From Oncomelania hupensis (Eukaryota; Mollusca; Gastropoda; Littorinimorpha; Pomatiopsidae): a DNA stretch of 64,000 nt. The DNA is taken from positions 24,770,887-24,834,886 of the forward strand of contig CM072525.1 of NCBI GenBank assembly GCA_036898135.1, given 5' to 3'. Every line of letters begins with the position of its first letter. The stretch's first letter is position 1. The notes under the pieces were generated by a model. It searched no databases. It was not told the DNA's origin and was given only the letters and a program-made list of their open reading frames with translations. Below are positions 11,686-59,200 of this stretch, piece after piece. The translations under genes and the position numbers were made by a program.

Positions 11686-14600
11686 CTGCACATCAGAAAC
11701 AAAAACTTATGTAGCTAAAGAACCAAATACATCCAGACCTGCCTACCCCCCAAATTTTTAGGAGTAACGACTTGGGACAAAAAGCGTAACATTTTGAGGG
11801 AAAATTGTAAAAAGCGTATTCACACCGCGATCGATCTATCGGTCTGTAAATCCGTTATATTTCTACACCAAATACTAACAATCTTGTAACATTTGCCATT
11901 AATAGTAAATTAAACAGGCAGCAAGACAAGAAAATAGAAAAGCAAACAATGAATTTTTTTCTTTGCTGCTGGTTTAGCAGTGGCAACATCACAATCGGAA
12001 TCCTCGTCGCTGACGCTATCAGTATCACGAACACGCTTCATTTTAATTACTCTATTCGGCAAGCGTGCGTCTGGGCCAGTGGGGAAATGTTGCAATTTCC
12101 CTAGTAAACGTAGAAAAGTTAGTGTTCCAGCAACTGGTGCGGTTGTAGCTATAAAAGTTAGCTTGCTCACCATTGGTTATTAAGCTAGGTAACCAATGAA
12201 AAGCCGCGGTTGAAAGCACACTGATTGGCTTCTAGCTCTACTAGCCTTTTACAACTGAGCCCTAGTGCGCAAATGGCAATTTAAAAATCGGAATGGACGG
12301 CAACTGAAAAATCGTAGTTTTTGCGTTCTGAAAATCGTAGTGAAATTAGGGAAATCATAAAAATCGTAGTAAGGGATGAATATCGTAACAAAATACGCCT
12401 AAATCATAACGGTAGGCAGGTCTGTACATCCCAGAAACAACTTCTTCTGGTACCCCAAATAGAACTCTGGGGAATCAGGTGAGATTTGTGCGTAGGTGAC
12501 CATTTTGTAACACTCTGTAAAGTAGCCACAATCCGTCTCTTCAAGGATGGAGCAAACAGGCTGTGTTTTTGTTGCTGGCTATCCATCTGTCTAGAACATG
12601 AGCATCAAAATTTTATAGTTCTGAGCGAAGGAATGCACAAGTGCACAGTAGGCCTTGGTTTATACTCCCATCTGAAAAGGTAGGGTCACTATTACTACAC
12701 TATGCTGCCAGATTTGAACATCAGGCTAAAGTTACTGGTACAGTAGTTGGGTCACCCATCAAAGTACTAACCATGCTCGGCATTGCTTAACACCTGGAAA
12801 TAAAGCCTTTATTTCCACCACTGGGCTACAGAGGACCCTCCATCAAAGATACTTAGGGGTCCGATGCATAGCAGCAGACTTCAATTGCGGAAAGTTACAA
12901 ACTTCGAAGTTATAAACTTTCAAATAGTTGCGAACTACAGTACAGCGCTATGCACATATGCAACCAATCTGTTGACTAAGAAGTTTTGACCTGATATTTT
13001 TAGGCATGGGAATCTCCGATAAATAAATAAATAAATAATGACATATTAACATCCGAAAACAAAGTGACGTAAATCTTATGTAATTTTATCATAATTAAAG
13101 TCATCTTTATGCGATGACTGTGTATGAAATATCATGATTGTCATTTTTATAGAAAATGTCAAACAGGACTATAAATGAAAGATTTCGCTATGATTATCCA
13201 ATAGTCAATTTTTTTAAAACTTTTAACAGTATGAATGTTATGTGGAATATATTGTTGCACTGCAGTCATGAATGATATGTTTTATAGTTGTATTATTTTT
13301 GCAAATGTAAACAATATCCTTGAGAGCATGTGTCAGGCTACAGCCAGTGGCGTATCACCGGAGTACATCAACTGCAACAAGGGGCTGATGACCTATTTCT
13401 TGCAAGGGGGAAATTCGATGCTGTCTAGCACATTGGCTAGCTCTAAAATCATGTTCTCAGCAATCAGTATCTTTTTAGAAATTGACTATTATTCCACACC
13501 TCAAATGGATGTGTTATGTCTCTAAATACTCGATTTCTTTGAAGCAATCGGCGATTTTGCTGCCTACACGAAAGAACGCACGCCATGTTTGCTTTCGCGT
13601 AGTTACTAACTTCGAGCTGGTAGTCCACTTCCGATGTAGACTACCGTAGTTGGTAACTTAGGTGCGGCCTACTGGCTCATGCATTACGAACTACCGCTCA
13701 AAGTTCGTAACTTGCGAACTAATTGATAACTTCGTGTGAAGTCTACCGCTATGCATTGGGCCCTAAACAACACACGTGCCAATTACAGGTCAATATATTC
13801 ACAGAAATTGGCAGGTACAGGTAGTTGCCTGGGCATCAGGAATGGTACCCAGAGAAGCAAGTATAAGAGAAGAAGCAAGTATAAGAGAAGGACCAAGACA
13901 AAAGCAAATGATAAATAGAAGATGTATTCAAGAAACAATTCTGACCATGCCTGCAAATAGATAAAAACAGATTTTGCAACAATTGGTTGGGACTCCTTAG
14001 TGGTAGTACTGTTCGGAAGGGAAAAAAATGTCTTACCTGTCGTACAAGTTCTGTTCGCTTATAAATAGGTGGAGCAAATGACAAGAGCTTCAGCAACTCT
14101 TGTCCCAGAACTGCAAGCAAACCAGACTACAGTTAAGTCAATTTCTAGGCAAACCAGACTACAATTTAGCAGTCAACTTTATCTGACGAGGATAAAAACT
14201 AATTCTGCTGTTTTACATGATCCTGTGTCCTGCTTACCCCCAACTATGGCTTTGCACAATAGTAAGGTCAAACACTGCAGAATTTATACATGCGGCAATG
14301 TGAGGAAGTGTGAAATCGGTGGTATATTTAAGACTCTCTAAATTCAACTTAAAACATGGACATTACCTTAAACTTGAGATGACTAAGAAGATCCTGATTA
14401 TCTAACATAATCGACTGACATGAAAATGTGATATAATACAATGACCTCGAGACCTTATGTACATCCTCATAAACCAGTGTAAATGCAAAGTGTTTGACAA
14501 ATATAACTGTGCCCAGTATAACAATAAATTCATATTTTTGTAAATGACCTTAACCTTCAAGTTTCACACAGATTTGAAAATATCTGGAAATTTGTTATTG

Positions 14601-17600
14601 CTGCGCGAGTACCACTGACTCGCTTTGCTACATGCATGGGAGTCAAAACTGTAACAAATAACAACATAAACAAACTTACCTTGCAGTCTTTGTTCAGTAA
14701 GATTGGGATCAATGTAGAACCACCAGTCCTTGTTCTCAGTGGACTTTGGTATCTGTAGATAAAATCATAAAACAATAAGATACATGTGGCTGCTACGCAC
14801 ACTGCAGCCAAATCAGCAACAATTTGGCAAGACATTCAACACTCATTCGCATAGCTAAAAATCTGCATTTTCATCAGGTTTCATTTTTGTGGTTCTGTTG
14901 TGACTCCGCTTTGTCATAAAGCAGCAAAATAAAATGGTATGGGCCACAACAGCTGAATTAGAAAAACTGGTCCCACAATTTTTATTTCGGGGGTAATTAC
15001 AGAGACTCGTATTGCTGCAGCATGTGAATAAAAATGTTTTGGAATGAAAAAGAAGAAAAAGACAAGGTGCTAGGCAAGCTTTAGGAAGCCCACATAATGA
15101 TTATTTGCATGTGGGAAATGTAACAGCGCTTTCAGCATCTCTGAAGCTTCATTCATGTATTTATATTACTTACTTGGTAACGAGCCCACTTTGAAGCAAG
15201 GTATATGCAGACACATGCGACTGTCTGCGGTGAGTACATTACGCACATGTAAGTCAGATGGACGCTGAAAAATAAATCATCATCATCACAACATCATCAT
15301 CATTATAGTCATTATCTTCATGTTGATACATTTTCAAGTATTCATGGGGACAAACTATCCCATCAAGTTGGGTTTCAATCTGATTGGATTGAATCAATAT
15401 TTATAACAAACTTCAGTAATTACCAACTTTAAACCATTTTTGCACAGACAAATATAGAGAACATATTTTGTCAGGCTATCACTATTATTTTTTATTTTTA
15501 AGCCATATCTCTTTTCACAAAATCCAAAAAAACGTGCATTTGGGGGACAGAATACAGACTTAAATGATTAAAAAAAATCATCTACAAAGCAAGCAAAGAA
15601 ACAATGAATAATAATAATTATAACGGATGCTTTACATAAAACTCAAAAAGTTCAATCATCTAAAGTGAAACACTATTAAAAAAGTGAAAAACCTTTTCTT
15701 TTTAATTTTGAAAATTTAGATAAAACAATACATATAGCAGGGTGGAGAACAACTGAATCAAGAAATCTCTGAAATCCGGCCGGGGCCCAGCCCCGGTATT
15801 CGCCCCTTGGAAGAAAATGAATTTATGTCTTTCAAAAACGTTATGAATCTTGATTTGTAGGCCTAACAAAGTTTGAGGTCCACAACTGTTACACACAAAC
15901 TCCACATTTCCAATTTTACTGGGCACACGTTTGTCTATTTTTTAGCTGTAAACAGGCAAGAATTTTTATAATTTTAGAGATATTTAGTGGTACGTTAGTA
16001 AAAACACCACATCTTAGGTTTTAGTGACTAGTGTATAGATTTAAATGAAATAAAATGCAAAATGAACAGAACTAAATTCTATTTTGATTATCTACCTTTT
16101 TATACTTCTCTTGTCATGTCTTGTTTTTTATTACTCCATGTGTATAAAAAAAAAAGTTTTAAAAAAACCTAACAAGCCCCCTCTTCTTCACTTTCATGCC
16201 ATTCTGAAAGATCGTATTCATGCACACTACTGACACTAATTCAGTAATTGTCTAATGTCAGTACCGATCTCTTTCTCCGACTCCAAGTCCATTTCTCTCA
16301 CTTTAATGTCTGATAAATGGAAGCCTGTAATCTCCCCTTCATCAATCGAAGAATCCAAACCATCCCTTTTAGGCACACACACAAGAAAATTTGAAAAAAA
16401 ATCGAAAAAACTAACGCATCACAGAGAAAACTTGTGGAAATGCAGTCGAATGTTTTCACAAAAGAATAAACCGGAAGTCAATTGCCGGAAGTCTCGAAAT
16501 CTTTAAAACAACGCGAGAATATAACCACACGGTTGATACGGACGCTTTTGGACGTTTTGCCTGTTTAGACCTTCGGCCGCTTTTGGCCGTTATGCCCAGT
16601 AAAGGGTAGTTTCTCAGCTTCTCACACTCGGAACTCAATATTTTTTTCTCGGAAATGCAAATGCCTTCCGCGGAAAGTTCTCCACTCTGATATAGGGAGG
16701 GAAGAAAATGGAGTACCACTGGAAATCCTCAGTGACCTGGCCAATCTCATACTCAAGAAGAACAGGTCATCCCTAAGGGGACGAACTTACAACCTTCAGC
16801 ATTAGAAACCAGCGTTCTAACCAACAGCACTACTGGTAACCACAAGTTGATTTTTATCTCCCCAGCGTATTTGAAAATATATGATACAATTTGGAATGAA
16901 AACAAGCCAAAAGAGTGTCACTATGAATCCGGGCTGTCTGTTAATCAACTGCATGCAATTTCTCAAGAACCACTAAACAGATTTAGTTCAAGTGTCATAG
17001 GAACATTACCGGGACCAGATTCCCCTGCTATCGCATTTGCTCTACCTCGAAGGTCACAGTTGCTGGAGCCAAACACCTTTGACTCTAGTCTATATCTTAA
17101 AAATGACGTAATCAAATTAGATTTTTGTGTGTGTGTGTGTGTGTGTAAATGTATACTTCAACCCAGGGCTGATAATTCGGTTGCAGTCCGTTGGTTGGTC
17201 CATCAGATTTCACTTTGTTAAAAACTATTGTTTTGCATTCTCTCAAAAATTACTTGCCAAATTTTTGTATCTTGATTCAGATATATTACATTTATCTCTA
17301 CAAGCACTTTGAAATCACCATTTTTCAAGTTTAGTCAACAGTTTTCTGTGTAGTGTGTCATATAGCCTGGTCCCGAACAACGCATGCCAGTCTAGAAACT
17401 GAAACTACAAGATTAAACGATGACTATACTTTTCTCTCAAGCTACGAAATGTCTGCCTACTACCTCTACTATTGGTAGCTGTTGGTGCTTTTCTAAACAC
17501 CTCCAGGAAAATAACTGGAGACTGATTCAGTTAACATGATAGAGAGAACTCACGTTGTGTGACCCGGGTCAGGAACCTGTAGACTTGGGACTGGAACAAC

Positions 17601-20600
17601 TACCAGGATACAATGTACTACATGACCTATTCTGGTTCAACACACAGAAACTTCCAACGGTCACAACACTGATCCTGGTAACTCACCTATTGGTGGCCAG
17701 GAAATAGGCTGTCTGAGCGAAGTCCTTGGAAGCTACAACAAGAGCAAAGGTAATTGACTAAATCCCAGGGGTATTATTCCAAATAAAAGAAAGACACAAA
17801 AGAAAAGGGAAAAAAAGGGAGGAAGAAAACCAAAACCAAACACAACAGAAAGGCATGAAAAGCACAGTAGGCAATACGCAGCAAATGGTATATAAATATC
17901 TTCATGCCCAAACTTTACTGTCCGTCTTCTTGGTCTTACTTTCAAAAACACCCTAAATTTCTGAAATATCTAAAATTACTGAATATCTTTCCCTAATCAC
18001 TCTAATGCATTATTCAACCTATTTCGGCAAATTTCCAACCAATACAAAACAACAGATGTTCAATCTAAATATGGAAGAATGTCTTGTTTAAAAAAAAAAA
18101 GGGGGGGGGGGGGTGGGGGGAGGGTATTTACAACATCTACAGTGACATTTCTGTGTGTTAGCACATAACAGCACAAAGCTAAACAGCGGTGGGAAGACAA
18201 CAGAAGGTCTATTCAACACCTATCGCACAAACACTTGCAACCAAATCTGGATATTATACTGTACTGTTAAAAGAAACACCATGATACAAACACTGTATTT
18301 GTTAAGTATCTTTTTCCAGACAGTGGCACTGAATCACAAGCGTACTAGACATACAGGAGAAAGTCTGAAGGTACAATCAAAATTAAGATGTTTACACACC
18401 TTTTATCATGTGGCATCCTTTTACAACATAGGCGTGAGGGTGATCCACGTGCACAGAAAAACCTGTAAAATAAAATACCTTGTATATAAACCGGTACATT
18501 AAAAAAAGTTAATGAATGCAGGACTCCATTTTTCATCTTCGTTCTCAAGAGTACAAAATGGCAGGTCATTCAAATGTATTTCCAGATACTCGTACACATT
18601 TAATAGTGTTGAGTTCTAGTTTGCTCTGCGGGAACAAACACAAACGCACAAAAGAAACCAAGATGGCAAGCCAGTCAAATGTATTTTCAGAAACTCCTAC
18701 GCATAGCCCAAAAAGAAGCATTTTAAAAAGTGGTCATTTCTAGGTGGTGTTGTGGCTTGGTTTATCCTAATAAAGTAAAATAAACACATGGAATGATGGG
18801 ACACAATCTGCACTCAAAAAATTATCAAAATCCGTTGAGCCAATGAATCTGTACATACAGTGCAAAACATGTTTAGAAAATGGTAATGCATAATGACCTT
18901 GACCTTTGAGAAGGTACAAATACGAATGATCCAACATGCTTAGCTAAGTAGTTAAAATATCACACAGCAAAAATGATTAATTTCTATTGAGCTATTTTTT
19001 AGATAAAAGGTGCGAAAAAAAAAAAAATGAAAATTTGCAGCCATGAACCGGACTGCTACTGAAGTAGCATGATCTGAGGTACCTGGCAAGTGCACCTTCA
19101 GTGCTATGAAATGCAAGGCTAGCAAAGATTTGAATCCCATGGCATAGTCCTTTTTCTTGGTAAAGCAAATTTGACATGGAAGACTGGCCACTAACAGAGG
19201 TAATGTTTCTACAAAGTTTGGTCAAAATCTGTTGGTTCTGGAGGTATTGTGTTCAAAGAACCAATCAACTGTTACAGATGGTCAGACATAAGGCTTGTTC
19301 TGAGTACCGACTATTTTAGAGTATACAAAAAGAATTAAAGCTTCCCTTAGTCCTATAGATTTTGCCAGTCCAGAAAGGCAGGAGGGGTGGCATGTTTAAC
19401 CCTCTAACCCCTAGATGTGCCTAAGCTTTATGAGCTATTTCCTAGGTCAAAGCAAGTAACTTCGTCAAATCCAGATTAGATATTCAATGTTTATAGGATA
19501 ATTCCGTCAAAATGCTACACCATGCGCACACAAAAATTAATAAAAAATACCCAACCTTAATTGGCGGACCAATCAGTGTCTAGGGAAATGACGTACGTTA
19601 CTAATTGTTGATGAGAAGGTAAAACCCATTGGTCAAAAGAACGTAGTTTGAACAATGCCTGTACCTATTTATAAATCCGGAAGTGACCCCAGCATGTTCA
19701 TGAGGGTTTCCTGTTTATTTTGGTATACGAGAATCCCCGAATCGTCCGCTAGACCTAGCGGTAACTATGCGGCGAAAATGACCAAATTTTGTACTTGTAA
19801 ATTTTGTTGATTAACTTTTCTGCACCCCCACAGCAGTTAGGGGCAATTTTTACATAAAATCATTGAGGATATATGCAAAAACACTTTACAGGATTGAAGT
19901 AGATAGTCTAAACATGCAAAATAACCAATAATCCCAAAACGCCCCAAAAATTTGGGGGGGGGGGGGGGGGGGGGATAAAAATGACTCACTAAATTATGTT
20001 CCACTCAACATTATTAATAAATCAACAACATGTTTTTCTTCAAAATGAAATACATTTGTACAGTGTGTTGCAACAGGGGAAAAAAAAGAGTCAACATTAC
20101 ATCCTGCCACGAACAATAAAGCACAGGCTCTTCTTCGTTGCTGTTGTTCAAATCCGATGGAAACAGATTGTCAAAGTGAAAGTCCAAATCACTTTCCTCT
20201 CCATCATTCACCTGCACCAAATCAGCCACCTAATATACTTCATATGGGCCATCCTCTTCGTTCGATTCTGCACCATAATTCTCCTCCTCAATTTTCGAAT
20301 AAACTTTGAAACTTCACTGTGTGCGATCTACAAACTCTAACAATACAGTGAAAACTCGTATTACTACTGTCAGCTCGCGGTCGCCCTGCGAACGCACACA
20401 TAGCAAAAATATTGGTCGCTGCACGTGTAAGAGGGTTAACATGCCCTGGGACAAAAAATAACCAGAAGCATCTAATCCATTGATACCATGTGTTTTCTAT
20501 AATTTAATTTAACAATTAATGAATAAAAGTGCATGTAGGAAGAGGTCAGACATAGAACTATGACCTAAATGAAGTAGCATGAATCAATCCATAGATTACA

Positions 20601-23600
20601 CTTCATCCCACCATGGTTACAGATGAAATTAGATGGTTTAACAATGGAAGCGTCCATCGTCTTCTGAAAACTCTTCACCACACTATTGTAAGCTGCCAAG
20701 ATGTGGGTTAAGATAACAGAGATCCGGACAGGATATTAAAGTGAATGAATACTCACCGACAGCTTTCAGGACTACATTTTCCAGTACCTTCATCTCCTCA
20801 ACTGTCGCATTAATGTCTGCCTGAAAAACAAAATCAAGACACAAAATCAGGCATAAGATCTGAGAATATTGAAATTAACTAAAAATTTAGTGGGGGGTCA
20901 AGGGGTGAATTTAGCAGGTCAAGGGGTACAATTCTTTGTGAGCTGAACGTGAAGCTGAACGTTTTTCCTATTTCTGACTGAAAAAGTATCACTCTCCTGA
21001 CATCTAAGCTGTGAAACGAAGCATATTGTTTTGTCACCAATCACTTATAATCAAAGTCAAACACTGAAGCTGTGCTGATGGTTATTTGGGTGTACATTTG
21101 AACACAAGCAGACGGCATTATGTATTCCTATAATTATAAAGAAATATACTATGCTGAAAATTTAGATGTCCTGAATTGCTGTATCTCAGTTCTATTCATA
21201 ACTTGCTCATGAATCTACCTGTAATAAAAAGGAAAGGTTTGTGGTGCAAGGTTGGGTTGAAAAATGGTATAGTAATATATATTTATGTTGTCGTGCCATA
21301 TCAGAGTATGTGTAGTACAGATGTTGGATGTTACACATATGAGACGCAGACATGCCTACCCTCAATTTGAAGTTTCCGTATTAGCTTTTTCAAATTTCAG
21401 TATTACTATTGTAACAGCATAAATATTGACGACAAACATGTAGGAAATTACCTTAGCGAAACAGAGATACCAGCGAAACGAAACTGGACATTAATACAAC
21501 AGTTAGCTAACAAGCAGCACACACATGGCAGATTAACCTCCTTGAAACAGTCACACCGCCGCCAGCTATTGATACCATCAACAGGCTTGGCGACCACGAA
21601 TGTTAAATAGCATACTTTAGTCAAAAACTAACCATAGCGTTGTCTTCGATTAAATAACTTACTGCACCATGAGACACTAAGTAGCTCACTCCAGCCAAAA
21701 GTTACCAAGATGATGTCACCCGTATTGGGCAGACACCGCTTATCGTTATTGAATCTGTTCTTCACTCTATCCCTGATACTCCACTTGAAAGATAATTATG
21801 CGTGTCCAGTGACAAGAGAGAGGGGGAGGAACTATTCAAATAAGAACCATAATTCTGTAGATGCGAGAGTAAAGAAAACGAAAGCTAAAAACGATTGGTC
21901 AGAAGACTATTGGGAACTTTTGCATACCTTTGGGGACCAAATCTCAACTGATCAGTCGCAAAAGAACTGTTAAGCTGTGAGGGTCGACCAAAGGAACAAA
22001 CTGCAGTGTTCGTCTATCTCCATCTCATCAAGAGAGTGCTAGAGACGTAAAAGACGATTTCACGAGTCCCAGAGTCTACAAGTAAGATAACACTAGCAGT
22101 TTTGATATGTGTATGTTTATTGTATATTGATTGCCATGTATAAATAATATGTTCTTGATATATAGTTACAGAAACAGATTATTGTTTCTGAGACAGTATG
22201 CATGTGGTTTGATGTACCTTAGCCTTAAGATTCGAATTGAATTGTGCATATGGGAACCCTGCAGGTGTCTGATGCTATAGACACTTTGCAGAGGAGACCG
22301 CACCCTTATAGCTAACGAGAATACTGTAGCCAGAGCTCCGACTTTTACAGGTCGGGCCTGGGATCATCACGTTTGTGGAGACGAACGCCTGACCGTCGCT
22401 CCCGTGGAACCAAGGAGAACTACCACGATTCTACCTGACCACGTCCAAACCCCACAGCTTCAAGAGCGACCCGACTTACCTTAGCTAAGTCACCCACCAA
22501 AACTGAGTCATACCCTCGAGAAACTAGAACCTTTGAAACTTACGAACAGTGAAAATCGTAACCGCAGGTAGCAAATGACGAAAGAAACCTGTCAAAACAT
22601 TTTCCCAGCACTTGGAACTATATTACTTATTAATTTACCGATTAATGCAGAAATGTTAAAGTTTGTGTTGAATATATAAAAAGTGAAATTACATACATAC
22701 GACTGGTGTCATTCTATTTGTATTGTTGTGTAGTTATTAGTTTTCTTCTCTTGAGACATAATAATCTAGTCTTTTGATTAGTCATCACCGGTTCTCAAGT
22801 TGAGCCAAATGATACTAAAATTCCCGAGAACAAATATAAATTTTATGTGACCAAAGTACCGTGACCTGTCTCTCACACCACTTTAGGACTTCTGGTAAAA
22901 GAACGATCGATAGTGGTAGCGCATCGCCCATCTATCAATAAGTCTTACCCCCTAGTAAGATAAACGTATCTTCCCCAGAATATCATCACAACTATTACGA
23001 TTTCCGTATGTACTTTTACTACCTATTGTTTTTGCACTCATCCTTTTTGATATTATGCGAAGAATCCAGTGATAGACTGATTTGCTGCCACAATGTTTTT
23101 TTTCTTCTCCAAAGCCTCGTAATTCTTCATATACTGTGGGCCTTCCGCGTGCCGCTTGATGTCGTTTATATCACCGGCGGAGATGCCAAACTGGTTGGCA
23201 CAAATCGTACTTTTGAGACAGTGCTGCCGCAAATAACGAAAGGACACTTTTCCGAATACGAGGCAAGAAATGTCTGCCCCTTGCGCGTTTTTTTTGTTGA
23301 AGATTCAGATTCACAATCACATTTCTTAGCCATTCGTTTGAACGCCATGTTTTAAATTCTGTCTCACGAGCACCGATCTTTAATGCGACTGTGCAAAAAC
23401 GGGTTCGGCAAACTTCGGTGCCTCTACCGGAAACTTCGATGTCACAGGTCTCCACTGCGACTGCGCATTGCGGCATTAAACCTTCGGAAAAAGGTCATGC
23501 AGTGCATTACCACAAACCAACGATTTCGATTTTTTTCTTTATAATTTTTTTTAAATTTCCGTACCGTAAAACAAATATCCGTATTTTCCGTAGCGCTTTC

Positions 23601-26600
23601 CGAGTTTTTCAAATTTCCGAAAAAAATACAGAAATTCTGTACGGGTAGGCATGTCTGGAGTCGCAACAAGTAACTCGGCCAGGAAGGCATAATACAGGTA
23701 TTAGACTGTATTTAAACACATCAGAAGATCAAGGACACCGATGGAAAATATATAAAGTAAAACCAAATACAGTGGAACCTCCGGTATCCGTCTCTCTGGT
23801 ATACGACTCCCTCCGTTATGTGACCTGAAAACTACTGACGGATTCACTTCCAATAATAAATGACCTCTGGTATGCGACAACCTCGTTTATGCGACCAGTG
23901 ACCGTGTCTTAAGCCCTTTATACGACCGTCTTAGGCAAAGAAATATCAGTTAATTTATTGTCTGTACCTTTCGCTTTTTTCTCCCATGCTATTGTCTGCT
24001 ATTTCCGGTTTGCAAGTAAGGGACATTACTCGCCTACACTGGCTTGTCAAAATGGCGTCGCGCAAGAGAAAAGTTTTGAGTTTGGCAGAGAAAGTTTTTC
24101 CCTGTTCAAAATGTCTGAAGACATGAATGTTTTCTATTTTTGAAGTTGTGAATAAAAGACAAAGCTAAAAATTAAACATGTTTTACAGTTTTCTTTGTCA
24201 GAGAATACATACTGGTGAGTGTGAAAATTATGACTACATACCCCTCCAAGCCTGATCCCCCCCCCCCCCCCCCCACCCCTTGTTTCCGGTATAAGACCAC
24301 CTCTATTATAAGACCGTTTTTTCTCAGATTTTGGACGGTCGTATACCGGAGGTTCCACTGTAATAGAAAACAAAGATATTCGTTTGTCACTGCACAGGAC
24401 ACACAGCCTTCCCAGGAATGTCAATTTTAGTGCTAGTGTCTCTCACTTCAAAATCAAATTTCTTCTTTCCCCACAAAAGTGTCACAGATTCCTCCACCCA
24501 CATCCAAATCAAACAGTTTTTGACACTTCCTTTCTGGTCTAAATCTCTCGCAAGAGCTTGTTTTCAACTGTATCAATTTCCGAAAAACAGGAATTCTCAA
24601 ACGGTTCGTAAAAAAACGTTGAAGGCAATAGAGTATTGAATAGTAACTAGAAGTGCCGTTCTCAAATGGTTTATAATTTGAGGATAATCTGCTTTGGGAA
24701 TAAAAATCGTCTGCTCAAGCTAAAGCAAAAACGAAACCTCACCTCTTCTCCCTTTCCCAAATTTTTTTTAGGAAGTAGAAAGATCAACACTGATCATGGG
24801 AGTCCTCCCTTACTCAACATCACAAATAACCTTATTAATCACACATGCTGGTACTTCACCGGCAACTTTTGTGAGCCGTCTCTGGTCACATAAGGGTTTC
24901 TTCAGGTACTTTGGCTTCCTCCATCCCTCTTTTTTGATTTTCTTTCCATCTTCTAATTATGATCTCTGTCTTTCCACCACATTTTTGTGGACGGAACGTG
25001 CATTTGTTGTGCATGTAACGTGTCAGTTTGCTTGCTGGTTACAGATCACTCACCATCAAGTCTTATTTAGGGTGGTTGTATTTCACCACTGTGTTATGGC
25101 CAACAGAAGAAGCAGGAAGAAATATACAGACTTTGAGATTAACTCATGTAACATACCCGTCTTGGTTCGAGACAAGGTGTTGGAAGATGTGACAGCTTGT
25201 GCTTCACTCTCAGCACTGCATCAGCAACAAGCTCAATTTTCCTCGGTTGTTCTTCTGTCTTGGCCGCAATGAAGAAACATGTTGCAGCAATGGCCTGAGA
25301 GGGCAGAGTTAAAGTACAGAAACATAACAAACTAAAACAACATAATAGCTTGGTTAAAAAAAAAAATTAAATTATAATTCAAAATTATAACAAGGGGAAA
25401 GTCCATGACTCAACTTAGCCTTTAGGAAATCTATTATGTACACAGTACAGTAACATACTAACAATAATTTATTTAAATAACAAAAACGTTGTAAATGAAA
25501 TAGATTAACTCTTAGCGTCCTGTTAGGTTTTCCATACATTTCTGCCTCAATCCTGTAAGGATTTCAAGTTTTGAGCAATAAATTGGGTTGTTACAATGTT
25601 AGTTTTAAAAAAAAATTAGTATAAATGTATTTCTTGTCACAATTACTTCATATTTTAGGATTTGTTGTCTGCGTGGTTATTCTGCATACCTAAAGTGTCA
25701 TTTTGAATTTAGCACTGTTTTTACCTGTACAAATCTTGAAACTAATAATTACAGGTAAACCTGTCAACTGTGTTAATAAAACAACAAAAAAAACACAATA
25801 CAGTGTGATTTGCATGTGAATGTGTCCACAGTCAACACAAAAAAGAGAACACTTGCAAATCAGTCACCTATCAATCATGAGGGTCGATGTATTGATGAAT
25901 AAAATCACAGGTAACTGCAGACAGTTATATGACCGAAAAGTTACCAAATCCAAACCTTAAAAAATATATATGATCACTAAAATCGTCCACAAAACCACTC
26001 GAAACTTGCAGAATAGATCGCGACAAGCAAACACGAGTCTTCCCGGAAGTGGACTAACGCTTCTCTCACGTACTAAAAGAGTTCTTTCTTCCTGTGATTC
26101 ATTACTAAAAATAGCACTATAGCGAAAAGCGCTTTACTGCGCTTCGGGAATAGAGGAAAGGTGCGCATTACTGCGTTACAGGACGCTAGGAGTTAAAAAC
26201 ACACAAAAAAACTTTTAAGAGTTATGGATTTCAAATTTATTTTAATTTTTTTTCGATTACATTACATTATTATTGCTTTAGGTCCAGCGGACTCTTCTGA
26301 GCCAAATCAGGACCGGACAACCCCCGATTTGCATAAAAGATCTGCTGAAACAACCCTAGTGGTAAAACCGAAAGTTCTCCACCAGCCAGTCACTTTACAA
26401 TAAAGACATCCCACGCAGGGGACGGCTGAGGCTTCACCCCAACTTATCGAACCCCCGTTTACAAAAACAAAATAGAATACAAACATCATTATAAATTATC
26501 AACAAAACGCATACATATAAAATGCCTACATTGCTAAATAATAACATCATAGGAAGCCCTAGAGACCACCCGGCAGAAAGCGCCCAAAATTCCCAAGCTG

Positions 26601-29600
26601 ATCCAACAGACCTTGATACACAAACAAGGAGTCTTGTCCCGAAAGAGTTTTCAAGAAAAAAGGTAGGAGACTGGTCTAGCGAAGAAGACAATAGTATAGC
26701 AGATTGATAGAAAAGAGCAGGAATGAGAAAGAGCAAATGAGAAAGACAGCGACAGTGGGAATTTAAAGAACTAAATTTCCAGAAAGTGGGGATACTATTT
26801 ATACTGAAACCCCCAGCACCCCAGGTAATTTATTTTCAAGTAGAACCACGGACTGATGTAACTGTACATTAAAACACATGGTCATCTTACCATAGAGAAC
26901 ACAGCAAATTTTAAAAAATCATATAGCAATGTAAACCTCATTAAAAAAATCGTAGTGACGTAATTTCTCTTAAAAATCAAGGGTAAACAGGTCTGACAGA
27001 AAGATCTACTCAACTTCACAACGACACAAGCAACAATAAAAACTAAAACACTTACAGATTTGGAAAACAAATTAGCAGGGATGGTTGTGGCGTAAGCGCG
27101 CCTCATTATCGTGCAACCTGTGTTGATGCAGAGCTGGGACCTGCAAATGGCGCACATCAGAATAAATTACTAGTTTGTGCACTAAATGGTTGGTTCTCTA
27201 TTATCTTACCAAATACATGCTGGTGAGTAGAGACACGATGATACCAAATACTCAGTGGCGTGCATGGACAAGATTATGACAAAAACTCACAGGCGGATAG
27301 TTTCTATATTGTTGTATTTTAAGGCAACCCCAAGGAATTATATGATGAAAGATACCTCTTGTTATACTTCAATGAAAAGCTCGGTATCCCACCTTCTCAT
27401 TGATGGTTAGTTTTTGCTATCCTGCTTCTCAAAAAGACAGAGAAATAACTATGTTTTGCGAGACGTTCTGAATGGCCTCTTCAAATTTCTCTCCGGATTA
27501 GCCTAGCAGTGGCAGTGTTCGAGTAAATAGCAGGAAATAACATGAATTGTGGGCAAAATAAACTAGTGAAGTTAAGAAATGCTTCATGAAGGTTGTATGA
27601 ACATAATCATGCAACACATTTATTAACCCCTGAATTTTATCCATGCAGGTTGTCTCCCTTAAGTTGACTTTTTTTTTCTGGTAAACTATGAATTGAGTGA
27701 CCATTTCATAAAATTATGTTGCAAAACTTTTGTTGCCTTCTGTTTTCCTCCTAAATTTACAAGCATAAAATTAGTGGTGTGATCACATTCTCTCTCTTTC
27801 TCTAAATAATAACTCTTAAGGTAGGTACTCCAAGCCCTTCATTGGCTCTTGTCCGCTCTGTAGTTTTGACTCAGTTTTCACTTCACTTTCAACACTTATT
27901 ATTAATGTAAAACTGCATCAAAACGAACAGTGGCTGTATTCAAATAAAAATTGAAAGCTTTATCTTTACATCTGTGTTGTTTTTAATGCATGTTTATGCG
28001 AAAGATTCTGAGAAAACAACTGACAGAGAGTTAGAGTTTCTCAAATCTTGGCTACTAGACTTGCCTACTGTACCAAGTCACTACTGCCGCAATCTCCCGT
28101 CTTAGAGAGACAAGCGGTTTTTGTACCCGGGGACACAAATTGCATCTTTGTATGATCAGTATGTTGCTGAGTGTGGGGAAACGGGGGTGAGAGTGGCAAG
28201 CATCACATTTTTCAGGCAGGTGTTTAGGACCATGGAAATGTCCATCTTTGTTCCCAGAAAGGACCAGTGTGACGTGTGTGTAAGTGCCAAGTATGGCAAT
28301 GCTCAGCCCCACAAATATGCCGCTCACATTCGCGGAAAAGAAGAGGCTAGAGAGGAAAAACGCAAAGACACAGAGAGTGCGTCTGACGAACTCTCAGTGT
28401 GGACAATGGATGTCCAAGCTGTGTTGCTTTGTCCACGCACCAAAGCAAGTGCCCTCTATTATAAAACAAAACTCCAGGTACATAATTTTACTTTCTTTAA
28501 CATGAAGACCAAGGAAGGGTTTTGCTATGTATGGGATGAAAGTGAAGGGGGGTTGTCAAGCGAAGTGTTTGCTTCCATTCAGTTTCAGCATTTTGATGCT
28601 TACCTTGATGCCCACCCAGAGGTCAAAACCCTAGTTGTGTGGAGCGATGGCTGCAGCTATCAGAACAAAAACACAAACGTCGCCAATGCCTACATACATC
28701 TGTCAAAACAAAGGGGGGTGGTGATACAACAGAAATATTTGGTCTCCGGGCAAACCAAATGGAGTGTGATTCCATGCACAGCACGATAGAGCGCCAGATA
28801 GCAGTAGCAGGAGATATCTTCACACCGCGTGAGTATGTCGTTCTCATGCAAAGTGCGAGAAGAAACCCTTTCCCCTACACGGTCAAAGAGCTGTCATTTT
28901 CCGACATGAAAGGTTTTTGTGGTGCCTACATTACAGGCATTCGTCCCGGCAGAGTCGCGGGCGACACCACAGTGTCAGACATAAGGGCACTCCAATATGA
29001 GCCGACTCCCCTTGTCCAATACAAAATACAGTTTTCTGATGTGTGGGAAAACCTTCCTCAACGAATGGTCCACACAACTGTCATGTGGGGAAGGCCTCTG
29101 TTCAACAGCCGTCTCCCAATCAAAGAACGAAAGTACAAAGACCTTCAATCACTCAAACATGTTATGCCCACCAGTGTCAAAGCCTTCTTTGACAATCTCC
29201 CATATCAGTAGTGACTCGTAACAGCTGAGTACTGATTTAACACAGAACTTTTTGCAACTTTAATCCTAATCTTGTAGAGGTTGATGCTGCTTTCTAAGAA
29301 AATGTTACAATAAAAGTAAGATAATACTTTTTAAGTGGGTGCAGTTAGAAGGGGAGGGGAGAAGATCTATGATGCATTTGAGTCAAGTACAAAATTAGTT
29401 TTACCGTTGATATTGCAAATTACATGAAGTTTTTTGTTTATCTTTATGTTATTGATGAAATTTTAAAAAAAATCAATATTGCCTATCTTGTGTTTTTGTC
29501 TTTTAAAAACTGTCTTATGCCTATCTCAAGTTTCACTTCTTGCCTATCTCAGCTTTTGTTAGTGCTCATTCTGCCTAAATCAGTTTGCAGGCAAACGAAC

Positions 29601-34560: not shown

Positions 34561-34653
34561 TAGGTTTAAATGTAGTTGTTAATAGGTAAGATAGCATGGA
34601 AACGTTAAATTAAAATGGTTTTACTGATGTGTCGGGTTTGATTTCCAGACAAA

Positions 34654-47626
<12,973 letters not shown>

Positions 47627-47741: not shown

Positions 47742-48199
47742 AAGTTCTGAAAGAGAGATCATCTTAGAACTGGAAGTGGAACATATTTGAAAGTATCTTT
47801 GAATCTTTATGTTTGAAAGAACTTGAAAGCTGTGGTAGGCAGTTTGGGTGGGACTGTCAATGTTTATGCGTTTCATACATGTTTATTTCTTTCATAAAGT
47901 GGACCCTGTAGGTGACGTTGCAGAATTATAATGGAGTGGTTGATCAAGCTGTGCAATCTTATCTACCGTTACTTTCAAGTTCAGTGCATACTCCAGTTCT
48001 ACCTATGTTTCAAACAAAAAAATTATAATAATGCTACTGGTGTTCCTAAAAAATCCAAGTACTTTTTGAAGCAGCATAATAGGTAACCTTCGTCTGAATA
48101 AATATTTTGTGAAGAAAAACAAACAGAAAAACTGAAAGGGAGTAAGGAGGAATGCAACACTTCTAATTAGTGCTGATACTCCATGTCATCTGAGGATGC

Positions 48200-48560: not shown

Positions 48561-48708
48561 ACTTGAACACAATATTTGAAGAAGAAATTGTGAATAAACC
48601 TTGTTAGGGTGTCTGCACACTTGAGTCACTGCATAAAGATGAACTTTGCACGAAATGAGTTTACTTATTTATCTCGACCTTACAGTCGATTTCAGAAGTG
48701 TACATTTT

Positions 48709-49551
48709 CAGAGTTGCCAACCCCCAAAAAAGTTTTCAGTAGTAAAAATTCTGAATTTCAGTAGTTTTATGACATTTTCAGTAGCCATACGTCCTCGCTT
48801 TTTTTTTTTTTTTTTTAACGAAGACATGCATACACACAGTCTGCAACGAAGGTCGTGAAGAGTGTTTCCGCACGAATTATTGAGAGATCCATATCGGGCT
48901 TGAAGAAGGTGGCTACCGACTGAACAGGGACTAACTTTTCTGGATCAGGGCAACGACTTTTGTGACGGTTGCCATTCACGTGTCGCGTCACATCGTGGAA
49001 GCCGCCATGTTGACTGCTAAAATCTGCCAAGCACGCTGTACAATTAATACATGCTGTGTTTTGATCTCGATGACGCAGTGATGCACGGAAATTTTTCAGA
49101 ATACTCTTTCCTGTACTCTTGATTTGCTGTCCTCTTCTTTTTTTTCTGGGCTTTCATCGCTAGTTTTCTTTCTTTTTGGCATCATGGATTCAAAATACGC
49201 CACACACAAACTTTTCTTCTCGCGCTGTAGAACGTGACCCGGAAACGAAAGTGTCACAGAAAGGTCGAGATTTTGTTCACACATTGGCCGTTTGCAAAAC
49301 CACTTCACGGTGATTGGTCAAATTTCCTAACATGCACTGGCAGCGTGATCTATTACACCGTGCACGTAAACCGAATGACCGTGACCTTGAGGTGCTACGG
49401 AAGGCACAGGCGCTCAATAAAACTCGTTAAAACTGTAATACTATCGTCGAAAAGTGACTTTCCGTAGTAAATTTTCGATTTGCGTAGCTCCGTAGCCGCG
49501 TATTCATTTCCGGAGTAAACTACGGAAATTCCGTAGTGGTTGGCAACCCTG
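48709..49551 (-). mobile_element. hAT-like non-autonomous element D, exact 6-bp TSD CATTTT
   Basis: Termini CAGAGTTGCCAACC and GGTTGGCAACCCTG (13 of 14) flanked by CATTTT at 48703-48708 and 49552-49557. On the minus strand a decayed transposase N-terminus reads MPKRKKTSDESPEKKEED, then after frameshifts YSEKFPCI, then INCTACLADFSSQHGGFHDV, TRHVNGNRHK and MDLSIIRAETLFTTF. The CxxC...H...H pattern is a BED-like zinc finger. The catalytic core is absent. It lies between KANSL2 and HAT1. Confidence 0.82.
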
Positions 49552-50289: not shown

Positions 50290-50575
50290 TTTTTAAATAA
50301 CTAGAAGGGACAGCCATATGATACATACTCCTTGTGGAACTCGCCATATTTAAAATGAAAATTAGTGCCACTTCCATCCCCCCAAAAAAACTGGCATTAA
50401 ACTGCAAAGTAATAGACTTTAATCTTTCTATGCTCTTGACCTTGAAATGACTTTCGGCTCCAAATACACTCATGTACTATCAAATAAATTACAGCAAAAG
50501 TTGTTTTATGCCAAAAATATGGTGACCTTTGGATGACTTGACCTTCAGTGACATTGCTATACATGCGAGTCAAAA
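50290..50575. repeat. Dispersed repeat with TGACCTTGA-type motifs, copy 1
   Basis: Collinear with 53.40-53.66 kb: ATGAAAATTAGTG, GGCATTAAA-TGCAAAGTAATA, CTCTTGACCTTGA, CTCCAAATACACT-ATGTAC, GTGACCTT-GGATGAC. The stretch between 49.56 and 50.29 kb contains only AT-rich unassigned sequence. Confidence 0.7.
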
Positions 50576-50589
50576 AATGGATTGTTCTT

Positions 50590-50760
50590 ACATAGTGCGC
50601 TTATAAGTTCAGAGAACTTCTCAAGGCGCTGGCCATTAATATCCAGCATGCACATAATAGTTTGATGAAGATAGTATTCAAACCCACGTCGCCCAAGACG
50701 CCTGCACAGTTGGCTTGCGTCCTGAGCCACTGTGCTATCCCTGCCTCCAAAATAACAAGA
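50590..50760 (-). repeat. tRNA-headed SINE fragment, antisense
   Basis: On the minus strand: GGGATAGCACAGTGGCTCAG (box A-like) and GACGTGGGTTTGAATACT (box B-like). The other end (GCGCTTATAAGTTCAGAGAA) resembles the segments near 6.36 and 7.58 kb. Confidence 0.55.
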
Positions 50761-50769
50761 CATTTACCA

Positions 50770-52430: not shown

Positions 52431-52439
52431 AAACCATTT

Positions 52440-52710
52440 TTTGATCAGTGTCAAAACATACAAGCACGTTCGAGTGTTGTAACCACGTGATCTAAGGCGG
52501 GCTAGCTTGCCTTGTCCACAGGCTAGAAACCCATGGCACCTGACAGGTGTGGGATCGAAGCTGCCTCTGGGCGTTATATTTCTCCGAATATTAGTTACTT
52601 TCGACTTGGGCAACGTCTCGGGAGTTTTCTCCGGGTACTCCGGTTTGCTCCCTAAGCAAAATTTCAAAACCACAACTAATATTAGGTAGGTTGGGTTTAG
52701 GCGCGCCACA
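52440..52710 (+). repeat. SINE fragment with GGGTACTCCGGTTT tail motif
   Basis: GTGTGGGATCGAAGCTGCC (box B-like) is followed by TTTTCTCCGGGTACTCCGGT-TTGCTCCCT, the tail motif shared with 40.06 and 16.7 kb. It lies just downstream of the HAT1 stop on the opposite strand. Confidence 0.55.
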
Positions 52711-53091
52711 GGCTGTGACTACGCCATGGGAGCTGGCCCAGAATTTACCGATAAAAATGGACAATAAATTGTCACTAAAAAAAAAAGACAGAAAATTCAA
52801 AATCAAACTCTGGAACTACCAAGTTAAGTACTACCACACTGCCATTTCCCACCTTTCTCCTCTCCCCTATGCAACTTTACTAATCCTCCAGTACAAAATA
52901 CTAATCTCCTCTTTGTTTATCCACCCTGAAATACTACCCACACCCCTCTTTACATAACATTTCCTCCCATTCCAATACAACGCAAAGTACGAAGTACCCC
53001 TCCCCACCACCTGTAACTCCCTCCAGCCCTACCGTACTCCCCTTGCCACCCCCCTCCCCTCCTTCCCTGCAACAGAACGGTGTAAAGTAAT

Positions 53092-53265
53092 TCACACAGA
53101 CATGGCAGCCAGGCGTTCCAAAATGTGTCTGTATTCCGTCACATGCTCCTGGAACTGCTTCTCTAGCTGGGCATGGCGCTGCTCAGGTGTGATGCAGCTG
53201 AGTGTCTGGGCCAACTCGTCAGGCTTCAGGGCCTTCTCCAACTTGCTGAAGTCACGCTTGCTTTT
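53092..53265 (-). CDS. HAT1: HAT1 last exon (stop codon)
   Basis: KSKRDFSKLEKALKPDELAQ, then LEKQFQEHVTEYRHILERLA and AMSV. The acceptor ATCCAG|AAAAG gives an ungapped match to human RLISPYKKKQRDLAKM. An alternative acceptor CCCTAG at 53284 would add six residues and fits less well. Stop TGA. Confidence 0.88.
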   Translation of the reverse strand, partial: KSKRDFSKLEKALKPDELAQTLSCITPEQRHAQLEKQFQEHVTEYRHILERLAAMSV

Positions 53266-56200
53266 CTGGATAGACAGAGCAGCCTAGGGCCATCAGCACT
53301 GTTAGTAGCAATATAAACAAATGTGCCTTAAAAAAAAAAAAAGAAATCAATAGAACTTAAAATTGTATATGGGTGAGAACAAAAAAAAATAGAAGGGCAA
53401 AGCCCATATCACACACGTGCTCCTTATGGAAAGCGCAATATTTAACATGAAAATTAGTGTCCAGAAAAAACATAAAAAAACGGTGGCATTAAAAATGCAA
53501 AGTAATACCGACTTTGATCTTAATGTACTCTTGACCTTGAGATGACCTTGACATCTGGCTCCAAATACACTTATGTACTATCAAATAAAGTACAGTAAAA
53601 GTTGTATTGTGCCAAAAAATGGTGACCTTGGGATGACCTCGACCTTCAGCGATCTTGACCTTGAGAGGACCATGACCTTCCTGTGACCTCTCATGCATGT
53701 CTGATCAAATAACCCAATGTAGTTGCATACTATGGGTTAAATAAAACAGCCATTCCACTGTGCAAAGACCTATTTTTTAAATGTTTTTGCAAGGCCTAAA
53801 ATGACATTGACCTTCAAGATCAACGCAAAAAATGGAACACATATGAAAGATCAACTTATCATCTCTAAATACAAAAGGTTTGGACTATATCTATCATAGT
53901 TTAGGGTCAAGGTCACTTCAAAGTACCTATATTAACTCTTTCCCTGCCAATCGACGATATACAGGCATGGGAATTAATTTGAATGAAAAAAGAGGAAATT
54001 TGGCGAGGCCCGAAGGGCCGAAGCGTCTGTGGTCTAGGGGGTCTGGGGGAGCGCCATAAGCTCACCCAGCGGGGTCCGGGGCGGAGCCCGGGCCGCCAAC
54101 GCATTTCGTGCATTTGAAATGCGTTTTCCTGCACTCTCAGAGTGCCTTCAAGAAGGAAATGATTTTGTTTTGCAAACAAAATACATTCATGAAATGTAAG
54201 AAATTTAGAAAATGTGAGAACAGTAACACTGTAAAATGCTCTGTTTAGCTTAATTCTACAAAAGATAAGGTCCATACAATCAGCAATGTCCAAGACACTT
54301 TTCATACCTTTAGCAGAGCAGTTCAGCCACTTACTATCAGCCATAGAATCAGTTTGTGCGTTATCACCCCAAAAATTGTATAAAGGTAAACAATTAAGTT
54401 GAAAAATGTTTATTGTACAGCAAGTCCAACTTCAAAGTACCGAGAGCTTACTTTTTAATGTTTGAATTGTGCGCTTTATAAAATAAAATATTATTATTAT
54501 TATTATTAGTAGTAGTAGTAGTAGTAGTAATCCAAAATGTCATGTTCACAGTCCAGGACACATATTTAATATTAATGGCAGCCAGCCAAGGCAAAGATTA
54601 TTTCACACTTTGTACGATTTGACAGCTAACTGCTTTTGTTGCTGCAAGGTGTTTAGCACTGCCCATGTGCTCCACGAGCGCCGTCAGTCCACGATGTGAG
54701 TAGTCTACATCCTTCGGACACATTATGCACCTCGCCATTCCTTCAGCTTGAAGTTTTCTGAAGCACACTGACACGCGCTGTTCGCCATCTCCAACTTTCG
54801 CATTTTTCTCCGTCCATTCCCACCTCCACTTATTCTTGACGTTGCCTTCTGAATACTGCTCACCCCTCTTTACAATGTGCGACATCTCGAAACGATTTTC
54901 TTTTAAATTTCACAATTAATAGCTACAAATCACAAAAGGAATCTTCGCAGCGTACGTAGTTTGAAAAACAATGGCCGCCCACAGTCCATTCAAAATTGTA
55001 GTCGCCCGCTGTGCGCCCGCTATTGTTCACGTCAGTACCGGCTGCGGGCGCACATATGCGCAAAGCGGGATTGGCTGGGAAGGGTGTAAGAAAGACAACT
55101 CTGCGAAGAGGCGAGCAGACGACGCATTCGCTCTCCCAGGGTACGGACTCGACTTTGGTTTTTGCAAAATTTTAAAAATCGAAAAAAAAAATCTCGGAAA
55201 CGATTTCTTTTTCTCGGAAAAAGCGATCGCTTGCCGATGAAATCCTCGGATCCGAGGAAAATTCCCATGCCTGGATATATCATCGATCTGAGCTGCCATG
55301 TTTGTGCCAATCGACGATATATCGTCAATTTCAGTATTCCGTTTCGTTCCGGTTTTTTGCGCAGTCTAATCCAAGTTTTATTTTAACCAAAGAGAGATAA
55401 CTCTTTCTACTTTCGTTCTCGATCGACACACGCGTGGTTTCTTCAAATTGATTCGTTTTTAGAGTGTTTTTTGTGCATTTTACTAAGCATTGTGATGGGC
55501 ACAATCGACAGTGTGTCAAACTCTGCTAATAATCAATATAATTTCAAACTGTAAAGTGTATTTTGATCCTAAATAAATTTTCTTTCTGGTGTGTGAAGCT
55601 GATTCAGTGATTGGAATTATTCCTCCAGATTTTTTTTATCACTGTGGTATGTAGAAATATTTTTATTTTATTTTATCATTTCAAAAAGATCAACATGCTT
55701 TCAAAACACATATTTCAATAACATAATCAAATTAACATTTTTGTGGTTTTTTTTTCTTATTCTTCACTCTTTTACCTTTAATTCAGGCCTGCCTACCCAA
55801 GATTTGAAACTTCAGGGACATTTTGCACGGCCGACAAGCAAGGGCGACCAATACGCGCCCAAGTAAATAGTGGGGTCCAAAGGACCCAAAATCATGCAAT
55901 CTGAGCAAGAATTTGAATTAAACAAATTTGATATAACAAGAAACTCTGTTAACAAATTATTTATTAAGCATAGCCGTACTAATTTTAGAAAACATACTTT
56001 TAGTAATAGAGTTGCACCTCTATGGAACAAACTTCCACAAAATATTAAACAGGCAAAAACTTTAAACAGTTTCAAAAATCTTATTGATGAACAAGAATTT
56101 TAAAATCTATAAAATACGATTTTGATAGTTGAGCGTCTTGAGCCGGCTTAAATCAGACCTGAAATATATGTGCTAAAGATGGGACATTAAATAATAAATA

Positions 56201-59200
56201 AGCCGTGAGGCTTAATCAGTTAATGATCACCATGATCTAGTCCCTACACTACTACTACTACTACTAAGGAAATTGGCACTTAATCATCAGGATCCCAGTC
56301 ACACTAAAAGTATCAAATGCATGCAAGCTTACCTTTTAGCTATATTTACACTATGTACACCACTCCACTACACCACTGAATCTACTTGGACATGGGAAGA
56401 GACCTGCTTGAAACCTCTGTTAAAATTAAATTTGTCCAATGATGCCATCGGCAAATTTAGCTCGACCACGATATCCACCATCATGGTTTCAGCTCTTATT
56501 ACGTCCAAATCATGGTTATAAACTTGACTTGGAAAATAACTAGTCAACTTTTGGTTTGTTTTGTCAAGATTTTTTAGACTTTCCAAGCTCGCTTCTTTTT
56601 TCAAATGCTTCTTTCCCTCGACATGCCGGTTCACGTCATCCATACCACCGTACATCATGCAGCCGAATTCACTGGCACATATTGTGCAAAACACCTTGTA
56701 TTCCACACTTCCACGTTTGATACACGGATATCTTTCGGTGTATTTCTCCTTGTAAGGCTGCAGACGCTTTGTAGACTTTTTACCACCGGCACCAGCGGAT
56801 TTGGATTCACTTTCAGTTTCATCGGAAAATTCATCATCAGTCGCCTTACGTTTTGACGCCATTTTCGATTCGAACGAGTTTCTATGCCCATGCGCAGTGC
56901 GGCTCAAACAGCTGTTCGGCAACACTCGGAAGGCCGCGTCATCATCGTGTGCTGTGACTTTGGCCACTGTCGGAACTGAAACCGCGCGTCATTTGTCTTT
57001 TTTTTTCCCCCGACACGCACGCTTAAAAAGTGTGTTCCAGACTTTTTTTAAATTTCCGGAACGCGAAAAAAACTTCCGTATTTTCCATAACCAATTGTAA
57101 TATTTATTTATATCCGGGACAAATCCGGAAATTCCGGAACGGTAGGCAGGCCTGTTAATTTGATATGAAATATGTCTATTTAACAACTATTATTGAAAGA
57201 ACAGTAGCTTAAATGCCTAAGGTACTGAACTTTCTTTCCGGTGCCAGAGAAATGTCTGGCACAAACGTGGAAACATGCCTGGCAGGGAAAGAGTTAACCT
57301 ACTTTGGACAGCTCCAGTGACCTTGACCAAATTTTTATAATATTTTTGTCTCATTGACATCTATCATGCATCATAGATTCATAAGTTCAATACTAATAAC
57401 CTAGATTAAAAAAGTGAATTGTTTTTTTAATTGTCATTTTTGTACTAACATTTGTTGACCCTGTGACCTTGACCTTGAGGTAAAGTCATTCATTCATTGA
57501 TCATTTATGAGATCTCATGGGTATACTCCATCTTACCAAGTTTGGTTGTGATGTTCTGAGTATTTAGCCACTTTAAAGTTTTTTGCACAGACAGATGGAA
57601 GAACAGACATTTTTTCGATATCAATTTTGGACTATTTACACAGATTTGCAAAAATCTAGAAACCTGGGGGGAGGGGAGGGGAGGGGGGGGGAGGAGAAGT
57701 ATGTAGACTCACACTACTATGCATGCGAGTCAAAAAAAAGGGTGAATGTGACAGTTTTTAGAGCTGTTGGTGAGCTGTTGGTGAGTAATTCGTAGAAAAC
57801 GGTTTGTTACTGGACATTGAATAATTATATTATAAATGGAAATTAGGACTCTGTGCCCCAATCAAATATTTTCTTCACTGTATCACAAGAAAATTGTTTT
57901 GATGTTCGTGTCAGCAACTGGTATCTTTGTCACCGAATCAATCTGTTGATGTGTGTGAATCAAGTTCATCATCAAACAAACCACTTGATTGAGGTCCAGC
58001 TCAGTTTGCCTGGCTAAAAGAGTACTTTTAATATCAAATCTAAACCCATCTCAAAATGTCCACAGAGCTATACTAAATAATTACCTGAAAAGGAATGTTG
58101 AGGCGCTTTTTCACATCCAGTCTGTATTGTCGGAACATGGACTTGTTACTCTCGTCTGTAATTTTCAGGCGCAAGATCTCGTACACTCTCCGAGCTTGCC
58201 GCTGGGAACAGAAATGCCAACCACGCCTTTAAAACAAATGTGCGTACCATATTGACTTACTGTTTCGCTTCTTTATAAATGCCAATACTGGTGTGGTTTT
58301 TTTTTTTGGCAAATGACTTTTGCTTAATTTTTGCTGTTTTACCAGCAGTTATGGATACTTGAAGAGACAAACACCTTGTGTAAAACATCACATGAGACTT
58401 CCGAAAGTGTTCTGCAAGGCTAACGAATTCATAAGAAGCAAAATAAAAATAACATGTTTAAATAACATGTTTATTAGTTTGTTAAGGCTAAGCATATTCG
58501 TGTTCTTCAAAGCTGCAACCAAAACTAAATAAGTAATCTTCTAATTTATTTTCTGAGCATTCTCACAACGCCTGTTTTATTTTGTATAACTGAAAGACGT
58601 AACAAATAAATACAAAAATAAATTTGGCTCATCCTACTAAGCTTTAGTATTAATCTCAGTCGGTCCAGCTGGAAACTAACAATGACGAAATGGAGAAATA
58701 AATAATAACTAAAAGTTGACTCACTCTACTCAGCTTCAGAGTTTTCTGTGCTTCTAGCGCCATGGCAGAGTCAAAGCCCTCTAGCAAGTAGTCCGGCTGG
58801 AAGTTCTTCAACTTCAAGCAGTTCCGGGCGTCCACATAGTCGCGCAAGCGCTGGAAGTTTTCTGATGGATCTTCCACTGTACAACATGACAACATTTGAA
58901 ATTATAACATATTTTCCCCATTTGACAGCAAAATGCCATCAAAGCCAAGTAACAGACTACATATCGAGCACCTGTAGTTTTACGACTAGCATCATATATT
59001 TAACCATCCCAAACCATGCCTTCATCGCATGTTCAGTGGGGCAATTTTTCTTTCCTTACAACCGACACACATTCTACAATTATTTCAACCAATAGCTTCC
59101 TCACAACTGTATTTCACAGGGGTTCTGAAAGAGCTGATCCCTTCAAATAACAAAGGCATGCAGCTCACTCATCTGAGGGGAATCCTTTTTCTTCCCACTT

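Follow-up and report, generated by a model that had tools for sequence, protein, structure and literature searches.

Seven hAT-like elements with 6-bp target-site duplications in Oncomelania hupensis are probably internally deleted members of the hAT6 group

We analyzed 64,000 nt of DNA from Oncomelania hupensis (assembly GCA_036898135.1, contig CM072525.1). We refer to this whole stretch as the window, and all counts of elements and of open reading frames (ORFs) are counts within it. The window contains seven hAT-like transposable elements, which we call A, J, B, H, D, F, and G. An earlier note on this DNA had described them as starting with CAG, with matching ends, and as flanked by short target-site duplications (TSDs). 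For all seven, we verified the positions, the flanks, the initial CAG, and the match between the two ends. The elements, with their terminal inverted repeats (TIRs) and an insertion in one of them, are:

11734..12424, minus strand: element A, 691 bp, TIR CAGACCTGCCTACC, TSD TACATC at 11728-11733 and 12425-12430
15738..16689, minus strand: element J, 952 bp, TIR CAGRGTGGAGAAC, TSD ATATAG, minus-strand end like that of F
21347..23657, minus strand: element B, 2311 bp, TIR CAGACATGCCTACC, TSD GAGACG/GAGTCG (one mismatch)
36809..37875, no strand assigned: element H, 1067 bp, TIR CAGGGCTMGAAATTA, TSD GTTTAT
48709..49551, minus strand: element D, 843 bp, TIR CAGRGTTGCCAACC, TSD CATTTT
53962..55273, minus strand: element F, 1312 bp, TIR CAGGCATGGGAATT, TSD GATATA
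55784..57154, minus strand: element G, 1371 bp, TIR CAGGCCTGCCTACC, TSD TTAATT
55867..56266, plus strand: insertion in G, probably a 3' fragment of a long interspersed nuclear element (LINE), with a terminal (ACT)n at 56248-56266

The insert in G is presumably from a LINE. D has an 18-nt run of A (on the minus strand) at 48799-48816, between its transposase piece (see below) and its 3' end. A scan for elements nested inside the seven gave one weak candidate with a 2-bp TSD in each of J and B, and nothing in the remaining five. A short, dispersed repeat of the host may surround F: TATATCGTCGATTGGCA flanks it on both sides (at 53945 and 55305, within 53932-53961 and 55300-55321), and GGCACAAAC and GGCAGGGAAAGAGTTAA from its flanks are found again at 57258 and 57281 (within 57258-57297). 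At 11686-11734, about 48 bp separate one end of A, on the upstream side, from the probable splice acceptor of an exon at 10042-11706 that we take to be part of cyclin T; this is near enough for A to touch the branch-point region.

We scanned the window for CAG...CTG pairs with at least 11 of 14 terminal matches, an element length of 80-6000 bp, and an exact TSD. Among 169 terminal pairs, there were five exact TSDs of 3 bp, one of 4 bp, one of 5 bp, six of 6 bp, and none of 7-12 bp. The six with 6 bp are A, J, H, D, F, and G. In 20 dinucleotide shuffles (pooled; mean of 112 terminal pairs), there were 38 TSDs of 3 bp, 9 of 4 bp, 3 of 5 bp, and none of 6-12 bp. Because six exact duplications of 6 bp were observed and none arose in the shuffles, we rejected a chance origin for them. 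If one mismatch within the TSD is permitted, this adds B (GAGACG/GAGTCG) and a single further place, 35078-36626 (11/14 terminal matches), which we take as chance. The earlier count of six exact duplications in seven elements was thus correct.

Short TIRs starting with CAG are a feature of the hAT superfamily, and all seven elements have them (though the scan itself required CAG...CTG). The usual 8-bp TSD of hAT elements did not turn up in the scan at all, as against six exact TSDs at 6 bp. The combination that characterizes the group known as hAT6, a 6-bp TSD with hAT-like ends, is exact in 6/7 elements and has one mismatch in the other.

The termini of the seven elements appear to fall into about three groups: A, B, D, and G; F and J; and H. 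The pattern CAGNNNTGCCWACC is present at both ends of A, B, D, and G. With at most one mismatch, it occurs just once elsewhere in the window, at 58209, beside a HAT1 exon; this orphan has no partner with at most one mismatch and is probably a chance match. The TIR of A is identical to those of B and G at 13/14 positions, and A is placed in this group by its TIR only. For the sequence just inside the TIRs, we aligned the ends locally over their bases 15-100, in 84 pairs with 200 shuffles per pair, and considered the best 18 of the 84. The alignments of the minus (5') ends of B with G, B with D, D with G, and J with F all scored above every shuffle (0/200 reached). The plus ends are less alike: B with D was reached by 10/200 shuffles and B with G by 23/200, and D with G was not among the best 18 of the 84 pairs. 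The minus end of B against the plus end of D was above every shuffle, with a lower score than the same-end pairs, and the plus ends of A and H were reached by 4/200 shuffles. Since ends from different groups also resemble each other (see below), the three-way grouping is not clean. The earlier note had proposed at least five TIR families. We reject that number, as A, B, D, and G have one TIR pattern, and J and F have common subterminal sequence.

Pieces of a transposase N-terminus are recognizable in some of the elements. These are all on the minus strand:

56368..56862, minus strand: N-terminal frame of G, open, 164 aa plus stop, start codon 293 bp in from the 5' end; similar to P0001 residues 1-137, then unrelated
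54598..54885, minus strand: BED-like zinc-finger frame of F, open, 95 aa plus stop, start codon 389 bp in from the 5' end
23059..23348, minus strand: N-terminal piece of B, similar to P0001 residues 1-41 and 51-95 in two frames
48839..49185, minus strand: N-terminal piece of D, similar to P0001 up to residue 125, with matches in three frames
11913..12041, minus strand: possible acidic leader of A (marginal), 43 aa, start codon 384 bp in from the 5' end

When we used the frame from G as the query in a protein search, the hits included P0001 (E = 1.6e-22, 45% identity) and P0002 (E = 1.1e-14). P0001 is the hypothetical protein BaRGS_00003805 from the gastropod Batillaria attramentaria. It has 683 amino acids and a hAT dimerization domain (PF05699; 31.1 bits, with a cut-off of 21.4). 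This C-terminal domain was not detected in the elements themselves; it is carried by the protein whose N-terminus B, D, and G match (D over residues 47-125). Further relatives of the G frame are short: P0003 (76% identity), P0004 (79% identity over 47%), and P0005 (41% identity) come from contigs of 943, 1149, and 989 bp and could be truncated genes or cut off at contig edges. P0004 departs from the family past residue 78. No relatives were found in viral contigs that were scanned with the G frame and with another query, A2, or in prokaryotic genome contigs scanned with A2.

We built a profile from P0001, P0002, and P0005 and ran it on all six-frame ORFs of at least 20 amino acids in the window. 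G (E = 1.2e-40), D (1.4e-13), B (1.6e-7), and F (0.0034) were above the threshold. Below the threshold, there were just two ORFs outside the elements (E = 0.12 and 0.96), and there was nothing in A, H, or J. For F, Pfam gave 16.5 bits for zf-BED, which is below the cut-off of 20.6, and a protein search with this finger gave 20 candidates, none with an E-value of 0.1 or better. Among the other N-terminal frames, G had no match in Pfam and D had just an unrelated weak match.

The acidic leader of A is a marginal candidate for a transposase trace. Among 1,000 composition shuffles, 20 matched P0003 as well as the leader does, and 13 matched P0004 as well; against the other references, 172 (G) or 571-938 (P0001, B, P0005, and D) did. 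In H, tblastn with five proteins gave a weak match (P0004, E = 0.062; P0003, E = 0.18) with a 10-residue gap, which we take as chance.

The predicted structure of the G protein is confident over about residues 31-100, with a predicted local distance difference test (pLDDT) score of 82-90 in the block from 41 to 90 and a mean of 61 for the whole. The predicted domain consists of strands and a helix. Foldseek ranked spliceosomal or small nuclear ribonucleoprotein structures first through third and ZBED2, a ZBED3 complex, and ZBED1 fourth through sixth; none were significant (best E = 0.46). A model of P0001 that was built from 3 sequences had a mean pLDDT of 40 and was not used further. By sequence similarity, four of the seven elements (B, D, F, and G) have a detectable transposase start; the trace in A is marginal, and neither H nor J has one that rises above chance. 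The earlier note's statement that every element carries such a trace was too broad, and the retention that it emphasized holds for these four.

That note also reported the lack of a catalytic core, and here we agree. We searched the seven elements by tblastn, using P0001 from past residue 140 and P0002 from past residue 170 as queries, and found no core (the best E-value was 0.12, in B). A profile built from relatives of the G transposase detected none in the whole window. Pfam was run on 18 frames with stops masked, six from H and, on the minus strand, three each from J, F, B, and A, and it found no hAT core in them; for D and G, the Pfam search covered their N-terminal frames. We therefore rejected the idea that a core is hidden in the filler sequence, as none of the three methods yielded a hAT core below E = 0.1. 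If F, J, or H held a diverged core, belonging to a distant lineage, tblastn and the profile could miss it.

We propose that the seven elements are probably internally deleted cut-and-paste elements of the hAT6 type, non-autonomous and in about three terminal groups, that kept more of the 5' end and carry the transposase fragment as a passenger. The reading as hAT-like with a 6-bp TSD, which was already in the earlier note, is supported by the matches of the B, D, and G pieces to a protein with a hAT dimerization domain and by a hAT6 group having already been named. Their transposases, of the hAT superfamily, would attack the two strands of the target at a spacing of 6 bp, like those of hAT6 in Repbase. 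Full-length elements would lose internal sequence, most likely through interrupted gap repair after excision; both ends would stay, since the transposase needs them, and the shortened elements would move with transposase supplied in trans. More would have been kept on the 5' side than on the 3' side, which is why B, D, F, and G still hold about 95-137 transposase codons that include a BED-like finger. This fragment is most likely a passenger that would decay after insertion.

Several observations weigh against this explanation. First, about 1.7 kb of B (21347-23058) has no similarity to transposases by Pfam, tblastn, or the profile, and this filler is unexplained. Second, the 5' sequence that is common to B and G is 112 bp long, which is short of the ATG at 293-389 bp. 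Third, G and F have open frames. Fourth, some ends are similar across the terminal groups: the minus end of B against the plus end of H was above 200/200 shuffles, with a lower score, and the minus end of H against the plus end of G was above 198/200. Fifth, neither mobilization in trans nor full-length partners were seen in the window. Finally, plain random deletion is a little strained. In a toy model with one uniform deletion, we counted retention when B, D, and G each still had 200 bp or more of the sequence coding for the N-terminus. The model removes the LINE-like piece from G and sets B at 750 bp without the filler, so its percentages are only indicative. The fraction with retention in all three was 0.044, 0.035, and 0.010 if the ends require 50, 100, and 200 bp, respectively (1.0-4.4%), or 0.041, 0.032, and 0.009 with the lengths that we first used; if the ends require 250 bp, the way the model is built makes it impossible for B to keep the frame. 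Some 5' bias in retention is hinted at by this model, with n=3, strong assumptions, and assumed lengths for G and B.

Could selection keep the N-terminal piece? A protein with a BED finger might, like KP in the case of the P element, bind the common ends and block or titrate full-length transposase. The piece is kept in 4/7 elements, the frames of G and F (one copy of each) are open, the block in G with high pLDDT has ZBED proteins among its non-significant structural matches, and the toy model's uniform deletion yields a low percentage. Also, repressor proteins are a frequent product of small P elements, the 207-amino-acid KP protein being one example, according to the available text of PMC7776569. 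On the other side, the piece in B is split over two frames and that in D over three, and the finger of B has a tyrosine at the position of the second zinc-ligand histidine; the leader of A is marginal, and H and J have nothing above chance. An open N-terminal DNA-binding frame, as in KP, is thus found in G and F and is broken in B and D. We consider selection for the fragment unlikely. A more specific version, in which at least two terminal groups of the hAT6 type kept an open BED-finger fragment that competes with the full transposase, so that KP-like self-limitation evolved repeatedly outside of P, with G and F functional and B and D decayed, is a shade less likely again. Selection on a DNA-binding fragment was one of two ideas in the earlier note, and it is not shown by these frames; the other, that these elements simply delete in this way, has the better support. 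A repressor role for the kept piece is possible but unproven, and nothing so far indicates a function for it.

It is also improbable that the 5' end, into the first codons, is required in cis as DNA, for instance for subterminal binding sites or a promoter. In B, D, and G, the similarity of the 5' ends continues past the TIR and reaches further in than that of the 3' ends, which are hardly alike, and this fits a longer 5' requirement in cis. However, the stretch that B and G have in common stops well before the ATG, which means that a requirement in cis could end short of the frame, and J and H have no recognizable frame, yet their ends and TSDs are intact. That H, or F and J, come from another superfamily is very unlikely indeed: H and J lack a transposase match above chance, and IS3EU and GingerRoot also make 6-bp TSDs, but their termini are given as TA..TA (occasionally TG..CA for GingerRoot) in the available part of PMC10045372, all seven elements here start with CAG, on which ground we rejected this identity, and F matches the hAT N-terminal profile (E = 0.0034).

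The rest of the window contains parts of genes and other repeats. Two features were identified by similarity:

58740-58874: HAT1 exon, by its match to histone acetyltransferase type B chains (E = 1.9e-5)
34642-35061: frame with a zf-C3Hc3H domain (Pfam)

We take the gene with the zf-C3Hc3H frame to be KANSL2. At 28106-29211, two overlapping frames (227 and 200 amino acids) resemble a single protein split by a frameshift; Pfam had no match for these frames, and the protein is reminiscent of an animal transposon protein of a different type. A direct repeat of 557 bp, which starts with TTATTRTTGCTTTAGGTCCAGCGGACTC, is found at 4447-5003 and 26267-26823 with 89.8% identity and is a dispersed element. 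The frames at 43563-44215 are presumably a fragment of a LINE reverse transcriptase.

In a literature search for repressor-encoding hAT elements and for hAT elements with 6-bp TSDs, with most subscription journals outside its scope, we found nothing closer than the following systems. KP and other small P elements of Drosophila resemble these elements in being small, non-autonomous, and in encoding a DNA-binding protein derived from the transposase. They belong to a different superfamily, and repressor activity is reported for them (as far as the available text of PMC7776569 goes), as against just a predicted finger here. By analogy, then, a repressor would have a precedent in another superfamily, P. 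Selection on the finger fragment, if there were any, would suggest that DNA transposons besides P evolve their own truncated repressors.

P0001 from Batillaria is similar to G, B, and D at its N-terminus and, unlike them, is full length. The closest named group is hAT6. In its accessible passages, PMC12730594 describes hAT groups with TSDs of 5, 6, and 7 bp; the families with 5 and 6 bp were designated hAT5 and hAT6, citing the 2007 Repbase Reports (for hAT6, Kapitonov and Jurka 2007, Repbase Reports 7:1192-1204), and are placed in a lineage with Blackjack and other animal hATs. A hAT6 sequence from Nasonia was used in a tree in PMC3942097, and the 6-bp case in the part of PMC3630058 that was available is a long terminal repeat (LTR) element. 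Since hAT6 was named in 2007, a 6-bp TSD is no anomaly. Like hAT6, as far as it is described in these sources, the seven elements are hAT-like with 6-bp TSDs; they differ in lacking a detectable catalytic core, and they are placed by their TSD and not by a tree of transposases. By its TSD, the set is of a known kind, hAT6: an ordinary and well-marked sample of a named group that has few mentions in the literature searched. With seven 6-bp insertions from about three terminal groups in 46 kb of the window, O. hupensis should be a good genome in which to study hAT elements with short TSDs.

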